IMG/VR virus record: IMGVR_UViG_3300044691_000349
Span: 1-62,468 of that record
Source of the DNA: a virus
Strand: one strand, 5' to 3'
DNA: 62,468 bases
The notes below the pieces were generated by a model that did not search any database, was not told where the DNA came from, and worked only from the letters and a program-made list of their open reading frames with translations. The position numbers and the translations under genes were made by a program. This document shows, in pieces, positions 2,572-49,814 of the stretch. Each line of letters starts with the position of its first letter. The stretch's first letter is position 1.

Positions 2572-3152
2572 GCGCAGAAGCCTATCCGCTGTACTGGCCC
2601 GAGGGTTGGAAGCGTTGCCGTAATCGCGAGCACTCCAGATTCAAGACTGGGTTCGGCGCGGCACGCAACCTGCTATTCGCCGAACTGGCTCGCATGGGTG
2701 CGCGCAAGGTCATCCTGTCGACCAGCGTCCCACTTCGCAACGATGGCCTGCCGCGCGCCAATATGCGGCCCGACAATGGCGATTCGGGCGTAGCGGTCTA
2801 CTTCCAGCGCAACGGAAGGGATATGGTCTTCGCCTGCGACAAGTACCGCGACACGTGCGACAACATCTACGCCATCGCCAAGACCATCGATGCCATGCGC
2901 GGAATAGAGCGATGGGGAGCTTCGGACATGATGGAGCGGGCGTTCTCGGGGTTCAAGGCGCTGGCTGCACCAACCACTCGCGACTGGTGGGACGTCCTTA
3001 TGGTGCGCCGCGATTCGAGTCGTGAGGCGATTGAAGCCAACTTCCGCAGTCTGCTGAAGACTCGCCATCCCGACGCCGGCGGAAGCCATGAAGCGATGGC
3101 AGAGTTGAATATGGCTCGCGAACAGGCTATCGCCCAGATCGGACAAGCGTGA
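2568..3152 (+). CDS. J-domain (DnaJ-like) phage protein
   Basis: A 194-residue protein. The N-terminal two thirds match a phage-conserved region starting YPLYWPEGWKR, with VAVYF, ACDK and TIDAMRGIERWGAS segments. The last 55 residues read as a J domain: WWDVLMV, then a helix, the diagnostic HPDAGG motif (about residues 169-174) and a helix with AELNMAREQAI. The HPD motif is what stimulates Hsp70 ATPase in known J proteins, so this may recruit host DnaK, for example to replication proteins; that role is inference. ATGA overlap upstream and a GTGA overlap downstream tie it into the early operon. Confidence 0.8.
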   Translation: MSAEAYPLYWPEGWKRCRNREHSRFKTGFGAARNLLFAELARMGARKVILSTSVPLRNDGLPRANMRPDNGDSGVAVYFQRNGRDMVFACDKYRDTCDNIYAIAKTIDAMRGIERWGASDMMERAFSGFKALAAPTTRDWWDVLMVRRDSSREAIEANFRSLLKTRHPDAGGSHEAMAELNMAREQAIAQIGQA

Positions 3153-3400
3153 ATCAGAACTGTTGTCCCGCATGCGGCCAGACTCTCCCCGAACGCCGGG
3201 GCCGCATCTGCGCAGTCTGCCAGCGATCCATCGGCCGTCACGACAAGTTTCACTTTGTTGGCTCGAGCGTCCAGCATCGCGATTGCAAGAATCCCGAGAT
3301 GTATCAGACAGTGGCCACCCCTCAACCCCGTCTCATCGAAGACGACAACCGCGGAGAAATCGATGCTCTACGACGAGAAGGCGCTTCGGAAGCGTTGTAA
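3149..3400 (+). CDS. Zinc-finger protein, GTG start
   Basis: An 83-residue protein starting at a GTG that overlaps the stop of the J-domain gene (GTGA). The first half holds CPACG, then CAVCQ, then an HFVGSSVQHRDC segment, i.e. two Cys pairs plus His/Cys in a treble-clef or zinc-ribbon spacing. The tail is acidic. It overlaps the start of the HNH gene that follows. Function unknown; a DNA- or RNA-binding adaptor role is possible. Confidence 0.6.
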   Translation: MNQNCCPACGQTLPERRGRICAVCQRSIGRHDKFHFVGSSVQHRDCKNPEMYQTVATPQPRLIEDDNRGEIDALRREGASEAL

Positions 3401-3920
3401 CAAACAATACGACGATATGAAGAAGAGGGCTCGCCCTCGCCTTTGGAGGACCGGAAAGCTCGCGGGCAGAGTGCGCAGGCCTGGTCTCGAGCAGCTGCCG
3501 TTCACGAAGGATCAGCTCTGGAGGCTCGCCCTGGAACAGGTCGGTACCGGCGTACTACGGTGCCCGTACTGTGTCGAGATCGGCCGCGGCGCCACTCTCC
3601 TCGATCTCAGCAACTTCGTCTGGGACCACTTCGAGCCCGAGGGAAGGATAGGCATTGCTGCCCACACGCTCGCTAATCTCCGCGCCGTCTGTCCGGATTG
3701 CAACAACCTCAAGGGCAAGTTGTCCTACGACTTCTTTGTCGGCCTTATGGCCGCGATCGACCGGTGGGAAGATCCCGCAGACCGCGCCAACATTCACAAG
3801 TGTCTTCGCTCGCATGGCGTCACTATGCGCCTGAGATTCCCCGGAAAGCCCAAAGAGGCCTCGGCCCCTGAACCGGAAGTTGCAACTACTATGCCCCTCG
3901 CACTGCGGGACGACTGGTAG
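3363..3920 (+). CDS. HNH endonuclease
   Basis: The start at 3363 is chosen because GGAGAAATCG lies just upstream and it gives a 185-residue protein. A basic N-terminus precedes CPYC (zinc pair), a WDHFEP segment with the catalytic-type Asp-His, and LRAVCPDCNNLKGKLS, the C-terminal zinc pair followed by the Asn of an HNH/treble-clef fold. HNH nucleases in phages act in homing or packaging. This one lies in the early operon far from the terminase, so homing is more likely. The start overlaps the end of the zinc-finger gene by 38 bases in another frame. Confidence 0.75.
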   Translation: MLYDEKALRKRCNKQYDDMKKRARPRLWRTGKLAGRVRRPGLEQLPFTKDQLWRLALEQVGTGVLRCPYCVEIGRGATLLDLSNFVWDHFEPEGRIGIAAHTLANLRAVCPDCNNLKGKLSYDFFVGLMAAIDRWEDPADRANIHKCLRSHGVTMRLRFPGKPKEASAPEPEVATTMPLALRDDW

Positions 3921-4682: not shown

Positions 4683-4931
4683 ATGAGCTATCAGGCAATA
4701 GATGAGCGGATGCACAACGGGGTTTATTCGGTGGTGGTGAAGACGACTTGCGATCTTTGCAAGGATCAGAAGGTGCTCACCATTCCCGAGACTAGCTGGC
4801 TCGCATGGACCGGCGGCGAACTGATTCAGAAGGCGATGCCAGAGATTTCAAAGGATGACCGCGAACTCCTTATCTCAGGGACGTGCGGACCATGCTTCGC
4901 CAAGATGTTTGATGGAGGCGACGATGAATAG
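4683..4931 (+). CDS. Small zinc-binding protein, 82 aa
   Basis: A compact protein with CDLC near residue 23 and CGPC near residue 69, consistent with a single zinc site. The GAAGAGAG upstream fits a start at 4683. It overlaps the first codons of the next gene. No named family recognised. Confidence 0.6.
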   Translation: MSYQAIDERMHNGVYSVVVKTTCDLCKDQKVLTIPETSWLAWTGGELIQKAMPEISKDDRELLISGTCGPCFAKMFDGGDDE

Positions 4932-6603
4932 CAATAACCCCAGCGACGACCGAGAGCTAAAAGCGGAACAAACGGTATGGAATAGGACGATGGAGCAAGT
5001 CCAATTTCCAGGCAAAGCCAGCCTGCCGTATCGGGTCGTTTACAACGGCAATTCACTGATGTCCATATGCTCAGACGGTGACAAAGTAGTGGTGGCCCTT
5101 CCCCTAGCCATACCAGAGGGCAGAAATACTTACTTCCAGCCCACCGATCCAGAATCTAGGAGCCTGCAGTACATGGTGTGGGCAGCTAATCTATTCCCCG
5201 CGCTTGTGGGCGAGGTACAGAGATTGCGTGACGAACTCGCCGCTCGCCTCCCCGTACCGCCTGCGGAGCAAAAAGTGACTCCCAAATGCCCACAATGCGG
5301 TAAGGAATTGGAGAAGGTTAGCCAATCCCGCAATTCGCCGCTCAATTCCGACCAGTTCGATGCTGTACGCGCTGGAGACTGGTTCTGCGAGTGCCATAAC
5401 AATGGTCGCGGAAACACCGAGTACGCCTACTTCTGGGATAGTGAAGTTATTCCCAAGCTCCCTGTACCGCCTGCGGCCCCGAGTGAGCCCGTCGAACGAT
5501 GCAGCGATTGCCCACGCCTTTATGACACAGAAGGTCCTATCTGCGAAGACTGCCCACCATTGGAATCAGGTAAGGCCGCCCCTCCTGCTCCAGCGAGTGA
5601 GCCAGAGCGTTTGGCTGATAGTGATCCAGGTAAGCCGTGGACATGGTACCCACCGTGCCGATGGTGTAAGGGAGTTATCCACTGGCATAAAGAAAAGTGG
5701 GTTCACGTGGCCGAGTTTGGATGCCTAACGCGTCTAGCGTGCGCAGATGGGAAACATCATGCAGAGCCCACCCATCCCGCACTAGAGGGGCAACCGGAAG
5801 CGCCGCCAAAAGGGGAATGCAATTTTCCCGACTGCGATTGCTTGCCAGAGTCAGAATGCCCAGACAAACCTTCGCTCACCGCCCCCTCTCCGTCTCTAGT
5901 GGAAGCTCCATGGAAAGAGACGCGATATGCGCGCCAGCAGCAGATTTACAGCTGGTGCATCGCGGCGTTTGGGCACACCGAGGCGACGTCGCTCCCGCAA
6001 CGTGGCCTTCGATTGCTGGAGGAGGCGGCAGAGGCAGCGCAGGCCGTTAGCGTTGATCTGGCTATAGCTCATCACCTGTTGGATGTGGTGTGGAGCAAGC
6101 CTCCCGGCGAGATTGGGCAGGAGTTGGGTGGGGTCGGGATAACGACGCTCGCGTTAGCAGCCGCGGCCGGGTTGTCGGCTGACGAAGAGGAATCGCGAGA
6201 GGCGACAAGGGTTCTCGATAAGCCGCTGGTGTACTTCGCCAAGCGCAACCAGGCGAAGAACGATGCGGGCCTCCGTACCTCCCTACCATCTCCCCAGCCC
6301 GTAGAGGGAGCCGCACTGATTGCAGCAGAACGGCGTCGGCAAATCGAGTCCGAGAACTGGACCCCCGAGCATGACGATAGCCATGCGAAAGGCGAGATGG
6401 CTGACGCTGCGGCCTGCTATGCAAAAGTAGCCGCGATGAATTCGTATCCCGGTCCCGTCCCACTGGATGTGCCTAGCAATTGGCCCTGGGATGCGGAATG
6501 GTGGAAGCCATCATCTGATCCCATCCGCAATCTCGTCAAAGCTGGCGCACTCATTGCAGCAGAGATCGACCGGCTGAATCGCACCAAGAAAGCAGGCAAA
6601 TAA
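4924..6603 (+). CDS. MazG-like nucleotide pyrophosphohydrolase fusion, 559 aa
   Basis: The start at 4924 has GGAGG five bases upstream. The N-terminal half is modular: a phage-type CPQCG zinc ribbon with a DAVRAGDWFCE motif, then Pro/Cys-rich linkers, two of which (5467-5487 and 5553-5593) are shared with the gene at 1837-2571. Around residues 335-465 comes a MazG-like all-helical NTP pyrophosphatase region (RLLEEAAEAAQAV, then PPGEIGQELGGVGIT). The last 90 residues carry a widespread phage module (AERRRQIESENWTPEHDD, LVKAGALIAAEIDRL). The middle domain probably clears noncanonical or alarmone nucleotides. The stop overlaps the dnaB start. Confidence 0.75.
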   Translation: MNSNNPSDDRELKAEQTVWNRTMEQVQFPGKASLPYRVVYNGNSLMSICSDGDKVVVALPLAIPEGRNTYFQPTDPESRSLQYMVWAANLFPALVGEVQRLRDELAARLPVPPAEQKVTPKCPQCGKELEKVSQSRNSPLNSDQFDAVRAGDWFCECHNNGRGNTEYAYFWDSEVIPKLPVPPAAPSEPVERCSDCPRLYDTEGPICEDCPPLESGKAAPPAPASEPERLADSDPGKPWTWYPPCRWCKGVIHWHKEKWVHVAEFGCLTRLACADGKHHAEPTHPALEGQPEAPPKGECNFPDCDCLPESECPDKPSLTAPSPSLVEAPWKETRYARQQQIYSWCIAAFGHTEATSLPQRGLRLLEEAAEAAQAVSVDLAIAHHLLDVVWSKPPGEIGQELGGVGITTLALAAAAGLSADEEESREATRVLDKPLVYFAKRNQAKNDAGLRTSLPSPQPVEGAALIAAERRRQIESENWTPEHDDSHAKGEMADAAACYAKVAAMNSYPGPVPLDVPSNWPWDAEWWKPSSDPIRNLVKAGALIAAEIDRLNRTKKAGK

Positions 6604-44586: not shown

Positions 44587-44783
44587 TAGGCCGCCTCTTT
44601 CTGTGCTGCCATTTTCTTGGCCATCTTCAGCCGGCGCGAGTGGTAGGGTCGGGGGAGCACGTAAGGACGCTCATTGGTCCAGCGGATGGTATGGCACGCC
44701 ATCCCCACTGGCGCATGGCAGTCGCCGCAGTACGATGTCCGCGCCGTGATCTCCTCGGGCGTCAGTTCGATCGGTTTGCTCAC
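44586..44783 (-). CDS. Small zinc-finger protein, GTG start, 65 aa
   Basis: The true start is the GTG at 44783, preceded by GGAGG and overlapping the methyltransferase stop (GTGA). The product holds CGDCHAPVGMACHTIRWTNE and PRPYHSRRLKM, a compact Cys/His knuckle common in phage proteins. Function unknown. Confidence 0.65.
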   Translation of the reverse strand: MSKPIELTPEEITARTSYCGDCHAPVGMACHTIRWTNERPYVLPRPYHSRRLKMAKKMAAQKEAA

Positions 44784-46615
44784 GCGGGCACCTCCTGCGA
44801 TGGTGTATTCACGCTCAGGGCCACGGCTATGGGCTGTACCCAAATCGGCTGAGCAGAAAGTGCGAAGGATTCACCCGACCACGCCAGGAGCAAGGTCTGC
44901 CCCATCAGATCAGCGATAGCCTGCGCAGCGGCGGCCGGAACAGCATTGCCGATGCGCTCACGCTTGGCGCCATCGACATCTCCGTCCAAGTCGAAGATGT
45001 CGTCGGGATCAATCAGGGATTGCAATGCTGCGAGTTCTAGGGTGGTGAAGGGACGGTGCCAAGTTCCGTCGATCGAGCGGATGATTGCGACCAGCTTGTG
45101 ACTCGCCTCGGGCAGAACCTCTATTCGAGGATCAGCGACATTCCACCGGCCGTTGTCATGACAAGCGGCAGCAGAAACCGCACCTGAAGTAGAATCCCAT
45201 CCCATGACGCCATAGTGCCCATTGGTCAGATAGGCATCGCCCTTCTCGCGCTCATTCCTGATGCGCGGATCCGCGACCGAGAGAAGTCCCGACTGGACGT
45301 GCTGCCCGCCTGTCACGGTCTGCGATGTGTCGCGCCAACCGATAACCTTCAGCTTGTTCAGGTAGGAATTTGAGCCGTAGCTAGGCACGCGCGGATCGGC
45401 GATGCACAGAGCTCCGCTCCCGATACGATCCGCACCGGTCACCGTCTTCGAGAATCCATCCCAAGGCTGCACGGAGTACTTGCCGTCATGCTCACCCTGC
45501 GAGTTTGGCCATCGAGGATCGGCGACATTGAGGCCACCGGCTGATGGGCCGGTTCCTCCGGACACTGCCTGGCTAGTCTCATTCCAGCGTATGACGCGAT
45601 AGATGTTGTTGTAGCGATCGCCGTTCTTCCCCAAGAGCCGCGGATCAGCCACCGAGAAAGCTCCGCGCGTTGGCGCAGCCATGCCTGTTACCGTTCCGCT
45701 GGTTTCATCCCACCTGCGAACTCCCAGCGTATCGCCGTACCATCCTTCAGGGGCCAGCGCATACTCCGCCAGCTTTCCATCCACTACCTTCAGTTTCTTC
45801 AGCGATCTCCAGTCAGAACCAGCCTCCACGAAAGCAAGCCTGACCCAAGTCTTCCACTGCAGATTCGGGAGCGCATGCATCGGGCCGCCGCGCATGTCGC
45901 CCGGCATCGGAAACTTTTCGAGAATCTCGCCAACGGCCCGGAGCGAACGCTTCGGAGGCTCATACAAGAACGGCTGCACCTTCACGGCATGCCGCGCGAC
46001 CATAAGGAAACGCTTGCGCGATTGAGCCAGGCCACCGATCTCGCCGCAATCATGGAACGTCTCCGCTACCGCGTAACCGTAATGGCGAAGGAGTGCTCCA
46101 ATCTGGTCCAGCAGCGCCCGACCGCGCGTGGCGATGCGTGGCACATTCTCAAAGATGATGAGCTCCGGTGGGTCATCCGCCCACGCCTCCAGCATGAGCC
46201 ACATGCCGCGCAATGTAAGTCGGTTGAGAGCCTGATACTTGCCGGTCTTGCTCCGCGCCTCCGAAAGCAGCCCAGAGAAGCCCTTGCATGGTGCCGATAG
46301 AAACACAATGTGTGGCCGCTCGTTACCGGCCGCGGCGCGAATGTCCTCTGGCGTAGCCTCACGCCAATCGGGGCGAGGCTCGGAACCATGGAACGCGACA
46401 TATTGCTCGCGGTCGAACATATCGAGCACGGTGCCCTTTGTCCCGGAGAGTCGTTCGAAGTCGCGGATAGCTGGTTCCGATACGTCGATTCCTCCGATGC
46501 ATCGGAAGCGCGCGCGGAGATTGTTGACTTCAGCGCGACCGCGATTGAATCCAAGTGCGCCTCCTCCCAACCCAGCGAAAAAATGAAAGTGCCGTATTTC
46601 CCGCTCTTCAATCAC
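44780..46615 (-). CDS. DNA cytosine-5 methyltransferase with five internal repeats
   Basis: GTG 46615 overlaps the upstream stop, giving 611 residues. Motif I is HFFAGLGGGALGF (11-23), catalytic Cys110 is in SAPCKGFSG, ENVP at 156-159, QSRKRF at 198-203 and motif X ERIGNAVP at 553-560. Between residues about 300 and 500 there are five repeats of the form W-x-x-T/F-S-x-T/A-V-T/S-G ... ADPR, spaced 41-46 residues. This is in the target-recognition region. It should methylate cytosine in phage DNA and perhaps recognise several sites. Confidence 0.9.
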   Translation of the reverse strand: MIEEREIRHFHFFAGLGGGALGFNRGRAEVNNLRARFRCIGGIDVSEPAIRDFERLSGTKGTVLDMFDREQYVAFHGSEPRPDWREATPEDIRAAAGNERPHIVFLSAPCKGFSGLLSEARSKTGKYQALNRLTLRGMWLMLEAWADDPPELIIFENVPRIATRGRALLDQIGALLRHYGYAVAETFHDCGEIGGLAQSRKRFLMVARHAVKVQPFLYEPPKRSLRAVGEILEKFPMPGDMRGGPMHALPNLQWKTWVRLAFVEAGSDWRSLKKLKVVDGKLAEYALAPEGWYGDTLGVRRWDETSGTVTGMAAPTRGAFSVADPRLLGKNGDRYNNIYRVIRWNETSQAVSGGTGPSAGGLNVADPRWPNSQGEHDGKYSVQPWDGFSKTVTGADRIGSGALCIADPRVPSYGSNSYLNKLKVIGWRDTSQTVTGGQHVQSGLLSVADPRIRNEREKGDAYLTNGHYGVMGWDSTSGAVSAAACHDNGRWNVADPRIEVLPEASHKLVAIIRSIDGTWHRPFTTLELAALQSLIDPDDIFDLDGDVDGAKRERIGNAVPAAAAQAIADLMGQTLLLAWSGESFALSAQPIWVQPIAVALSVNTPSQEVPA

Positions 46616-49600
46616 GCAACCACCGCCATATCTTCCGACTCTTCCAAGATGTCGAACAGCGTAGGCATAGCCATCTTGTCTTCCATTGCCTTCGCGTATC
46701 CGCATCCGTCGAGGAAGTAGCGATGGTTCAACTCTGTCGCGATCGCCTTCCTGCCGAGCTTCAATGCGCGGTATGCTGTCGTCATCAACCCGCCAAATGG
46801 ATCGAAGACTGTCTCGCCAGGCATCGTGAATTGCTCGATCGCGCGATCAGCAATATCGAACTGCATGGGGCATATGTGGAGTTCTTTGCCCTTGGCATGC
46901 TGGGCGCCGTTCAGCGTCAACATCCGCGTAACATCGCTCCACACGTCAGGGTGCCAACTGGGAGGCTGCAGGAGCATGAAGGTCACCGGAAGAATCCGCT
47001 TCGCCTCCAGCGCCTCTCCGATCTTGACGTGGTGCTCATAGTCGTAGATGTGGGTCAGGTTGTAGTCGCGAAATAGCTTGAAGATGGCCTGATGATCCAG
47101 GTTATCCAACTCGTCCGGAGTTAGGAGGCGGTTGCCTGAGCTGCGGGCGAAGCCGTGAGCATCCGTCTGCCAGCGGGCTCGCGAGTATTTTGCCTTGCTC
47201 TTCACCACCGGGTTGTCCGCATAGCTATTTGAGTTCTCGGTGGGAGGTTTGCGGAACAGGAGGAGATACTCGGGCATCCCGACACCCATCTTGGTTCCGT
47301 CCTTGCATTGCTCGGTCCAGCCCAGCCGGTAGGTCTGATTGTTCTCCCGCACCACATCCGTCACGATGGTCTTCATTCCCATATACGCGAAGCCGTGGCG
47401 GATGAAGTGCTCCGTCACTTTCATATGGAACGGATAAGTAGTCTGGAAGCCGAGGCCTGTCATCCCTCCCGGGACAATCCGGTCCTTGACGTGGATAGCA
47501 GCGATGCGCCCTGGCTGGAGTACTCGCAGCAGCTCGGGCGTCAGGAAGTCCATCTGCTCAAAGAAGTGCTCGTTATCGTCGGTATGGCCGAAATCGTTAT
47601 AACTCGGGGTGTACTCGTATTGGGTGCTGAAGGGTATGGACGTTAGAACCATGTCGATACTGCCAGCCGGCAGGTTCAGCGCCTCCTCTACGGCGTCGTT
47701 GTTGATGCAGCGGTAGTTCTCGCCTGACACTTCAATCCGTTCCACGCCCATGCTGCGGATCAGCTCCTGCATCTTCTCGGCGTGGTCCAGCCCGTACTCC
47801 CGGATAATCTCGCTCATCTTTTGCACCGTCTCCTCGTACTGGGCCCACTTTGTCTGGAGGTTGCGCAGGACCTCGCGCTCACTCTCGGCGTAGATCACGT
47901 CGATGATCACCGGATGCTCCTGTAGAAACCGGTGGCAGCGGTGGATTGCCTGAATGAACTCAGAGAATTTGAAGCCTATTCCTGAAAAGATCACCCGGTG
48001 GCACTGCTGCAGGTTTACTCCGGAGCCGTACATGACAGGCTTGCTCAGGAATACTGTGGTCTCTCGGTTTCGCCATTGCTCAATCCGTTCTTCGCGATCC
48101 TCGATGTCCATGCTGCCGTCGAGTGATGAAAAGGTTATTCCGGAGTTGCCAAATAGCCTTTCAAGTTCACGCTGTTCTGCATTGAGGTCGCACCAGACGA
48201 CGATCTGCTCAGATATGCAATCGCCGCCCGCAATGTTTTCGGGTTGTCCCGAAACATTCCTAGACCGGAGTTGCACCCGCGACACAGCAGTCCTCGAACC
48301 TTCCCTGTCGCATGATCGTGATCCACGCGGAAATTTCCCTTCGCGTCTTTCGTTGCGTTTGGAGATTTGCAGATCGCGCAGCAGTTGTGTTGGCTTATGA
48401 GCATCTTCTGAAAGCACTGGGGTGTCAGACCGTAACCCTGTAGTTTGCGCCTCCTGGTCTGCCCCCGCGCCCGAGCCTTGTTCTCCATATACCACTCGCG
48501 AGATCGTGCTTTCCTCTTGTCGCGGTTGAGTGCGCAGTCTTTCAGAGCCAACTCCCGAGCACGCCCCGGATTGTTCTCGCTCCACTGTGCGTAACGGATA
48601 CGAGTCGCCTCTTTGTTTTTCTGGTAATTGGCTTTGTTCCGGACGCTCTGTGCAGAAATCAACCTCTCCCTGTTTCTCTCGTAATAGTCTTTCTGATACT
48701 GACGTCTCTTCTCGTCCACGAAATATGACCTCCAAAACCTTTGCGTTACGCACGCCGAGCGTGTCGCGCTTCTCCCGCGAGGCCTCGACAACGCCGCTCA
48801 CGCTGCCCCGGAATATCGTCCCCTGACCATTGGTCTCCACTGGTGAGTTTGTATGGTCCACCGCTACTTCGTGGTACCGGACCTCCATCGGAGGCAGGTC
48901 GTAACCTTCGTCCGAGAATCCAAGGTCCGAGGGCTTCTGTAGGAAGATCGCCCACGATGAGACCCACAGCCAGAACTCTCTCTCCTTGTGCGGATGGATC
49001 GTGAGCGTGTCGGCCTTGGTCGCATCACGCTTGAAGAATCGAGTCTTCGCCTGGCCGACATCCATGATCCCGAGGAAGGCTGCATAGGCCAGCAGTTCGA
49101 TATGGTCATTCGGGTCAGGAATCGCAGTCGCGACAAACTTGTACTGCACCCGCTCGTACAACCGCATGAACTCGCGGAAGGTCTTCGATCCACCGAAGCC
49201 GCGCAGCACGCTTGCCTCGTCCAGGCTGCAGACTACGAACTCACCCGGATCGAGCTTGCCATCGCGCACGGTCTCGAAGTTCGTCAGGTAGATGCCGGTC
49301 TCGGCCGCTTCCTCGATCCGACGGATGAACTTGATCTCAATCCCAAGCTTCGCTGCATCGCGCATAAACTCGACGCGCACACCGAGCGGCGCCGTGATGA
49401 GTCCGCGGCCGCCAGTTCGCTTCAGAATGAGCCGGAGGATCTCCAACTGCATCATCGACTTTCCAAGGCCGAACTTCGCAAATAGAGCCCGGCACCCGCC
49501 AGCGACGCCCCACTGCGCTAACACCTTCTGGTGGGGCTTCAGGATTGGGTTGATTTCATCGAGATCGATCGCGAATCCCCGATCAGGAGTAACCACCGCC

Positions 49601-49641
49601 TTGCGCTTGAGGAACCCCCGGTACCGCTCGAGTTTCGTCAT
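46612..49641 (-). CDS. SNF2-like helicase fused to a DNA methyltransferase, with overprinted insert
   Basis: 1009 residues from ATG 49641. The N-terminal motor has FAKFGLGKS (about 54-62), SLDEAS (139-144) and ATAIP; its second lobe begins at VVWCDLNAEQ. Between the lobes, residues about 306-477 are low-complexity Arg/Glu/Ser/Gln sequence that overlaps an endonuclease gene in the +1 frame. The C-terminal half is an N6/N4-type methyltransferase: TSIPFSTQYEY as motif IV and DPFGGLMTTAYRAL with a later IATELNHRYF as SAM site. Such fusions methylate phage DNA using a translocating motor. Confidence 0.85.
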   Translation of the reverse strand: MTKLERYRGFLKRKAVVTPDRGFAIDLDEINPILKPHQKVLAQWGVAGGCRALFAKFGLGKSMMQLEILRLILKRTGGRGLITAPLGVRVEFMRDAAKLGIEIKFIRRIEEAAETGIYLTNFETVRDGKLDPGEFVVCSLDEASVLRGFGGSKTFREFMRLYERVQYKFVATAIPDPNDHIELLAYAAFLGIMDVGQAKTRFFKRDATKADTLTIHPHKEREFWLWVSSWAIFLQKPSDLGFSDEGYDLPPMEVRYHEVAVDHTNSPVETNGQGTIFRGSVSGVVEASREKRDTLGVRNAKVLEVIFRGREETSVSERLLREKQGEVDFCTERPEQSQLPEKQRGDSYPLRTVEREQSGACSGVGSERLRTQPRQEESTISRVVYGEQGSGAGADQEAQTTGLRSDTPVLSEDAHKPTQLLRDLQISKRNERREGKFPRGSRSCDREGSRTAVSRVQLRSRNVSGQPENIAGGDCISEQIVVWCDLNAEQRELERLFGNSGITFSSLDGSMDIEDREERIEQWRNRETTVFLSKPVMYGSGVNLQQCHRVIFSGIGFKFSEFIQAIHRCHRFLQEHPVIIDVIYAESEREVLRNLQTKWAQYEETVQKMSEIIREYGLDHAEKMQELIRSMGVERIEVSGENYRCINNDAVEEALNLPAGSIDMVLTSIPFSTQYEYTPSYNDFGHTDDNEHFFEQMDFLTPELLRVLQPGRIAAIHVKDRIVPGGMTGLGFQTTYPFHMKVTEHFIRHGFAYMGMKTIVTDVVRENNQTYRLGWTEQCKDGTKMGVGMPEYLLLFRKPPTENSNSYADNPVVKSKAKYSRARWQTDAHGFARSSGNRLLTPDELDNLDHQAIFKLFRDYNLTHIYDYEHHVKIGEALEAKRILPVTFMLLQPPSWHPDVWSDVTRMLTLNGAQHAKGKELHICPMQFDIADRAIEQFTMPGETVFDPFGGLMTTAYRALKLGRKAIATELNHRYFLDGCGYAKAMEDKMAMPTLFDILEESEDMAVVA
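48135..48719 (-). CDS. Endonuclease VII-like HNH gene, overprinted
   Basis: GTG 48719 lies nine bases after GGAGG and opens a 194-residue frame: VDEKRRQYQKDYYERNRERL, a Lys/Asn-rich DNA-binding arm, then CAICKSPN, VDHDHATGKVRGLLCRGCN and SGLGMFRD, the recombination endonuclease VII/homing HNH signature. The family-like part ends at AIAYL (about 48212); the tail then reads into helicase sequence. It is in the +1 frame of the helicase gene, which stays open throughout. I interpret it as an invading homing endonuclease. Confidence 0.85.
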   Translation of the reverse strand: MDEKRRQYQKDYYERNRERLISAQSVRNKANYQKNKEATRIRYAQWSENNPGRARELALKDCALNRDKRKARSREWYMENKARARGQTRRRKLQGYGLTPQCFQKMLISQHNCCAICKSPNATKDAKGNFRVDHDHATGKVRGLLCRGCNSGLGMFRDNPKTLRAAIAYLSRSSSGATSMQNSVNLKGYLATPE

Positions 49642-49814
49642 TGCACAACCTCGACAATCCCCATGACGACGGCCTTGAGCGTGATGTTGTCGGGGTGGAT
49701 CTCCCCGAGCCCGCGCTTGCGGTTCCAGCGGAAATTCTGACCGTCCCATGCGACTCGATGCGCATACCAGTCGCCCAGAGCGAAGTAGATGACGAGACCA
49801 GGCCTGGAGATCAT
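49638..49814 (-). CDS. Small protein, 58 aa
   Basis: Bounded by ATGA overlaps at both ends (49814 with the DUF5131 gene, 49641 with the helicase gene), which leaves little doubt that it is translated. The product is hydrophobic-aromatic with VIYFALGDWYAHRVAWDG and a beta-like end (ITLKAVVMGIVEVVQ). No family recognised. Confidence 0.65.
   Translation of the reverse strand: MISRPGLVIYFALGDWYAHRVAWDGQNFRWNRKRGLGEIHPDNITLKAVVMGIVEVVQ

Follow-up and report, generated by a model that had tools for sequence, protein, structure and literature searches.

Can an endonuclease gene settle inside a working gene when neither an intron nor an intein is there to remove it? The question is raised by a locus in the viral record IMGVR_UViG_3300044691_000349, of which we analyzed a stretch of 62,468 nucleotides (positions 1 to 62,468; the window). 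The window carries integrase, portal, tape-measure, and tail-fibre genes and is thus from a temperate tailed phage. An earlier note, made from the sequence alone, had described an HNH gene lying out of frame between the two lobes of a helicase-methyltransferase whose own frame stays open for about 172 codons.

Anatomy of the insert and the nested gene

The host gene (46612 to 49749, minus strand) encodes an SNF2-like helicase and an N6/N4 DNA methyltransferase as one fusion protein, and it is open through the insert. Its reading frame matches the phrog_16 helicase (1.8e-124) as well as Helicase_C and N6_N4_Mtase, the methyltransferase part being downstream of the insert. Counted from the first ATG, the protein has 1,045 amino acids; a later ATG at 49641 (MTKLERY) is the likelier start. 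The adjoining gene (44780 to 46705, minus strand) encodes a cytosine-5 DNA methyltransferase (PF00145) in which a unit around 'ADPR...W...TS..VTG' recurs as several imperfect copies.

Alignment with insert-free relatives, a check proposed in the earlier note, defined the hinge and placed the insert at 48211 to 48726 (minus strand), between the end of helicase lobe 1 (...NAKVLEV) and lobe 2 (EQIVVWCDLN...). It comprises 516 nt, or 172 codons, which in the host frame contain zero stops and give a 172-residue linker. The linker is composed of 14% R, 12% E, 12% S, 10% G, and 8% Q, in agreement with the Arg/Glu/Ser/Gln-rich stretch described beforehand. In the AlphaFold2 model of the host protein, two folded lobes and the methyltransferase are found, and the lobes are connected via this linker, which is predicted to be disordered (pLDDT of about 25 over host residues 362 to 509).

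In the +1 frame relative to the host lies an EndoVII-motif endonuclease gene of 194 codons (48135 to 48719, minus strand), which starts with a GTG at 48719 and ends with a TAA at 48135 to 48137. The GTG is 7 bases into the insert, as close to the junction as had been claimed. The Shine-Dalgarno-like GGAGG, likewise named beforehand, is at 48729 to 48733 (minus strand), 9 nt 5' of the GTG, within the host codons TTG GAG GTC (Leu-Glu-Val). The last 24 endonuclease codons and the stop (48135 to 48209, minus strand) run out of frame through the WCDLN segment of host lobe 2. The insert has no stop codon of its own, since the 3' codons and the TAA of the endonuclease fall past it.

The endonuclease matches PF02945 (Endonuclease_7, E = 8e-22, residues 90 to 171 of 194), phrog_2914 (3.5e-30), and the structures of T4 EndoVII and Hpy99I. 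Its AlphaFold2 model (pLDDT 92) consists of a helical N-terminal part followed by the C-terminal catalytic motif, with a low-pLDDT tail that corresponds to the host-derived part. The CxxC...CxxC zinc residues and the D-H-x-H with its distal Asn (C114, C117, D133, H134, H136, C146, C149, and N150) are invariant in 36 sequences. The same zinc and active-site residues, and the same order of N-terminal extension and C-terminal EndoVII motif, occur in F-CphI, a homing endonuclease of cyanophage S-PM2 (PMC6083498). F-CphI, however, is free-standing beside psbA, where a group I intron protects its own site (PMC6083498), whereas the window gene is nested in an open frame.

Carriers among relatives of the host gene

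To survey relatives of the host protein, we used helicase-homology scans in which an open insert was no requirement. With the window protein as query, 80 loci came from viruses and 80 from genomes; a scan with the helicase of locus L005 added a further 80, and smaller sets were obtained as well. In about 200 helicase-methyltransferase relatives the hinge consists of no more than a short loop, without an insert. Eight more distinct, unrelated helicase-methyltransferases carry an EndoVII gene at the same hinge (L002, L003, L005, L204, L247, L248, L249, and L251). In each of them the gene occupies the +1 frame, and the host frame continues through the insert without a stop and in register. L204 was found by the endonuclease-based scan described below and the other seven by the helicase-based scans. 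L003 is the same as L082, a prophage in the cultured strain Gellertiella hungarica DSM 29853, and L005 is the same as L006, from two metagenomes. Among the fetched loci, no helicase was split out of frame by a profile-detected EndoVII gene, and the linker was not found in any relative that lacks the HNH gene.

Other insertions occur in this family. L004 (1508 to 2070) and L007 (4987 to 5537) have in common a stretch of about 150 residues inserted in frame into helicase lobe 2; both were rejected as HNH carriers, the inserted domain being unrelated and located further downstream. In L141, L145, L157, and L163, the methyltransferase part is interrupted near host residue 791 by about 1 kb of inserted sequence, which looks intein-like in L163 (Pacc40).

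A self-splicing intron (group I or II) or a translational bypass, each with an endonuclease gene, would remove the insert before or during host translation. Group I introns often carry endonuclease genes, and a ribozyme of a class unknown to Rfam would escape detection. However, the endonuclease frame occupies the insert from base 7 on. Moreover, in nine of nine carriers the host frame is stop-free and the length of the insert preserves the register, neither of which an intron would require. Rfam searches returned no group I or II intron or any other family in 48100 to 48800, at the gathering threshold or at E ≤ 10, and no family in 12 carriers at the gathering threshold. The earlier view that an intron is improbable is thus reinforced, and we regard removal of the insert as very unlikely. 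An intein is opposed by the predicted disorder of the linker, and no splicing (Hint) domain was matched in the window host protein by a library that does detect an intein in L162 (see below).

Openness of the host frame

If the host frame were open by chance, stops should appear in it when the endonuclease is recoded, which is the calculation that the earlier note had suggested. Permutation of synonymous endonuclease codons in the window insert gave 9.3 expected host-frame stops against zero observed, and none of 20,000 permutations left the frame stop-free. Sampling from phage codon usage gave 10.3 expected stops and a probability of about 1e-4 for zero. The unused third frame of the insert has 8 stops. 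Taken together, the nine carriers have no host-frame stop, as opposed to 44 expected from codon permutation, 62 expected from phage usage, and 60 found in the third frame. Chance openness has a probability of <5e-5 in the window; for the remaining eight carriers taken jointly, it is about 1e-20. Openness of the host frame is not a by-product of composition.

Among six related carriers, identity is 47% in the endonuclease reading, 29% in the host-frame linker, and 28% in the third frame, and differences cluster at the third codon position of the endonuclease, corresponding to the first position of host codons. Selection therefore keeps the sequence of the endonuclease and, in the host frame, the absence of stops only.

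Openness is also not automatic. In L157 (Micromonospora sp. ATA32, about 4699 to 5344), an EndoVII-like gene is present at another site of the same host family, the one used in Pacc40 (see below), and there the host frame is broken, both by stops and by an insert length that loses register.

This broken insertion lends some color to the idea that the window insert is recent, has inactivated the helicase-methyltransferase, and is open by chance, as does the dispensability of phage methyltransferases in some cases. The chance probabilities given above argue against it, and so do the low dN/dS downstream and the conserved residues that were kept, which together leave this explanation with hardly any weight. 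The dN/dS of the methyltransferase after the insert is 0.03 for L003 versus L108 and 0.07 for the window versus L008, values indicative of purifying selection. Near-invariant host residues are mostly retained in carriers, some of which show slightly more changes there, as does L008, an insert-free relative of the window. The host enzyme probably still works in carriers, to judge from these sequences.

Candidate translation signals

A GGAG is located 7 to 10 nt 5' of the endonuclease start in six of the nine carriers (the window, L002, L003, L005, L248, and L251). It is made of host codons X-Glu-(Ile/Val) in all of these except L002, where an AAGGAGG lies within a diverged stretch. L204 and L247 have weaker, loosely placed Shine-Dalgarno-like sites before the start, and L249 has none or at most a weak one. 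Since about 39% of insert-free WHDLE-type relatives (defined below) have a GGAG at the same place, the insert seems to exploit host sequence that existed before its arrival.

Alternatively, the endonuclease might be made by programmed frameshifting as a fusion to helicase lobe 1, with no internal initiation. Indeed, 26 codons without a stop precede the GTG in the +1 frame of the window. In L002 and L003, however, a +1 stop immediately precedes the start codon, which disfavors such a fusion, and in L233 and L351, two nested cases described below, a +1 stop lies 1 to 3 codons upstream. A start codon with a Shine-Dalgarno sequence in most carriers points the same way. We rejected the fusion as highly improbable.

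Scattered distribution and the flank switch

A host tree was built from the distal methyltransferase, with 68 rows chosen around the carriers. The nine carriers take nine changes on this tree, and well-supported branches force at least seven of them. The endonuclease tree is too poorly resolved to count enzyme origins; L003 and L251 fall apart from the group of the window.

The hinge-proximal segment of lobe 2 occurs as two types, WCDLN and WHDLE. In nine of nine carriers the segment after the insert is of the WCDLN type, whereas the nearest insert-free backbones are of the WHDLE type, again in nine of nine. The same combination, a WCDLN segment with a WHDLE-nearest backbone, is found in 3 of 27 non-redundant insert-free WCDLN relatives (p = 2e-6 for the association, not corrected for relatedness). 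In the window, the WCDLN-type flank that differs from the nearest relatives of the backbone covers approximately 47940 to 48210 (minus strand), the first 60 to 90 or so host codons past the insert. Identity rises with distance from the insert: in successive 30-residue bins it is 37, 33, 60, 83, 87, 90, and 100% between L003 and L111 and 23, 23, 73, 60, and 97% between the window and L008. A tree of the proximal 85 residues places all carriers on the WCDLN side with a support of 98.

This pattern looks like co-conversion of about 60 to 90 downstream codons along with the insert. Co-conversion of flanks is the usual mark of endonuclease-driven homing (PMC2988022). As a corollary, the donor flank possibly does not contain the cleavage site. 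The evidence for homing is this flank replacement together with the scattered distribution, beyond the anatomy alone.

A WCDLN segment on a WHDLE-type backbone is present without the insert in L019, L029, and L253, which are possibly former carriers that have lost it. We also considered a preference for WHDLE recipients and rejected it: all nine carriers agree with it, but WHDLE accounts for 117 of 144 non-redundant insert-free relatives, and nine of nine would therefore arise by chance about 15% of the time.

Instead of homing, the nested gene could encode a nuclease that benefits the phage, such as a resolvase, and be kept for that function, its spread being due to ordinary recombination. 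The T4 Holliday-junction resolvase is among the EndoVII relatives, and segment swaps between WCDLN and WHDLE without an insert do occur (the 3 of 27 above). On the other hand, the catalytic domain occupies the C-terminal part of the protein and follows a helical N terminus, an order shared with the homing enzyme F-CphI but not with T4 EndoVII; one site was struck in unrelated hosts; and the flank switch goes with the insert. We consider this explanation unlikely, albeit less so than the other alternatives.

Endonuclease genes nested in other hosts

A scan of viral contigs with the single endonuclease sequence of the window found no relatives, and an alignment was used for this reason. Of the 80 loci fetched with it, four (L204, L233, L236, and L237) have the endonuclease gene nested in a long same-strand reading frame in another frame. 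Nesting on the opposite strand was rejected, as a long opposite-strand frame across the endonuclease was found in 0 of the 80 loci. The hosts are a helicase-methyltransferase in L204 and SNF2 helicases in L233 (at the hinge) and L236 (in a lobe-2 loop). In L237 (2389 to 3466), the host is a dATP/dGTP diphosphohydrolase gene whose own frame is open, with the EndoVII-type gene nested in another frame. Two more SNF2 helicases with an EndoVII gene nested at the hinge are L325 and L351. In L197 (2877 to 3453), a sister of the nested L233 gene lies between helicase and methyltransferase sequence and not in an open frame.

A further host is an intein. L162 (MH976506.1, Gordonia phage Affeca, 514 to 2901) is an annotated terminase (TerL) with an intein (PF14890) that holds an out-of-frame EndoVII-type HNH gene (ending at 1838), with the host frame open. 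In inteins, an in-frame endonuclease domain is usual at the position where L162 has the out-of-frame HNH.

Altogether, 15 nested cases have no host-frame stop, whereas permutation predicts 59 and the third frame contains 106. Because the cases were picked for being nested, this sum carries less weight than that of the helicase set; L351 and L162 are not significant singly.

A proposed splice-free homing gene

We propose, as a well-favored though not certain reading, that the window holds a homing gene that needs no splicing, is hidden out of frame in its host gene, and spreads with a flank. The mobile unit, located at the interlobe hinge, would consist of little more than the coding sequence of an EndoVII-motif (F-CphI-like) endonuclease. 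Ribosomes in the host frame would read through the insert and make a helicase-methyltransferase with a disordered linker of about 172 residues. Other ribosomes would start internally at GTG 48719 by means of the Shine-Dalgarno sequence in host codons, translate the +1 frame, and end at the out-of-frame stop in host sequence, thereby releasing a free endonuclease. This enzyme would cut alleles that lack the insert, and repair from the carrier would copy the insert and about 60 to 90 codons of downstream flank, while selection would hold the host frame free of stops. The sequences show the anatomy and dual coding of the element, its avoidance of stops, its scattered distribution, and the replacement of its flank; from these we infer translation of both products, cleavage activity and its site, and homing itself. 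Counted against the homing reading are the weak or absent Shine-Dalgarno sequence of L249 and the loose ones of L204 and L247, the EndoVII-like insertion of L157 at another site with a broken host frame, the WCDLN/WHDLE exchange without an insert in 3 of 27 relatives, and the extra changes of near-invariant host residues in some carriers.

Relation to known systems

The earlier note had expected an uncommon type of homing element. Uncommon it is, but the type has been known since 2025, when Arsenault, Gosselin, and Gogarten described out-of-frame HNH insertions with open host frames, namely, the ShiLan domain, hidden in actinophage methylases, and Pacc40 gp60 (PMC11855218). By its arrangement and distribution, as read from sequence comparison, the window element belongs with these hidden insertions of the ShiLan kind. 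In ShiLan, too, the endonuclease gene is in another frame of an open host gene, and its GTG start codon lies only a few bases inside the insert; signs of an intron or intein are absent, the distribution is disjunct, and the host part is predicted to be unstructured (PMC11855218). The host gene and the site differ. Furthermore, for ShiLan no detectable ribosome-binding site is reported and leaderless initiation is proposed, whereas most carriers here have a GGAG in host codons; ShiLan has its own TAA inside the insert, whereas the window element stops in host sequence; and the available text on ShiLan contains no test of flank co-conversion, whereas a flank switch was examined here (PMC11855218).

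Pacc40 gp60 (PMC11855218; our L163) belongs to the same host family and is about 57% identical to the window host. It likewise has an out-of-frame HNH and an open host frame. Unlike that of the window, its insertion is about 65 residues upstream, after PSDL/I, and its HNH is phrog_374 and not EndoVII. A Pacc40-type phrog_374 HNH is also out of frame at the Pacc40 site, with the host open, in L252 (IMGVR_UViG_2585427722_000008, about 2838 to 3460). The HNHs of Pacc40, L252, and L157 were recognized by PHROGs and not by Pfam.

One more out-of-frame HNH was noted in a genome announcement (PMC12613952). The free-standing homing endonucleases of T-even phages (Seg and Mob) resemble the window element in lacking a splicing element and in flank co-conversion, which is probable for the latter, but they are located between genes or split them, whereas the window element is inside a continuous open host frame (PMC2988022). 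The literature search, with preprints outside its scope, found no report of EndoVII-type genes nested at this hinge or of a host-derived start signal or flank switch for such genes.

It is conceivable, and we advance this tentatively, that temperate phages harbor a general class of homing genes that are bare, splice-free, and dual-coded. Members from several HNH families would use host codons as Shine-Dalgarno sequences and out-of-frame stops of the host, and would reside at hinges that tolerate them in a range of host proteins (helicases, a dNTP diphosphohydrolase, and an intein), and their diverged flank would replace that of the recipient and maybe protect the carrier from its own enzyme.

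The 2025 description left translation unexplained, a ribosome-binding site not having been seen (PMC11855218), and the carriers found here offer a possible answer, as host codons may supply the start signal for ribosomes. The flank switch would be a sequence signature of homing and points to a possible location of the cut. Such nesting happened repeatedly at one site, and a homing gene can, on this evidence, persist in a working gene without an intron or intein by forcing dual coding.
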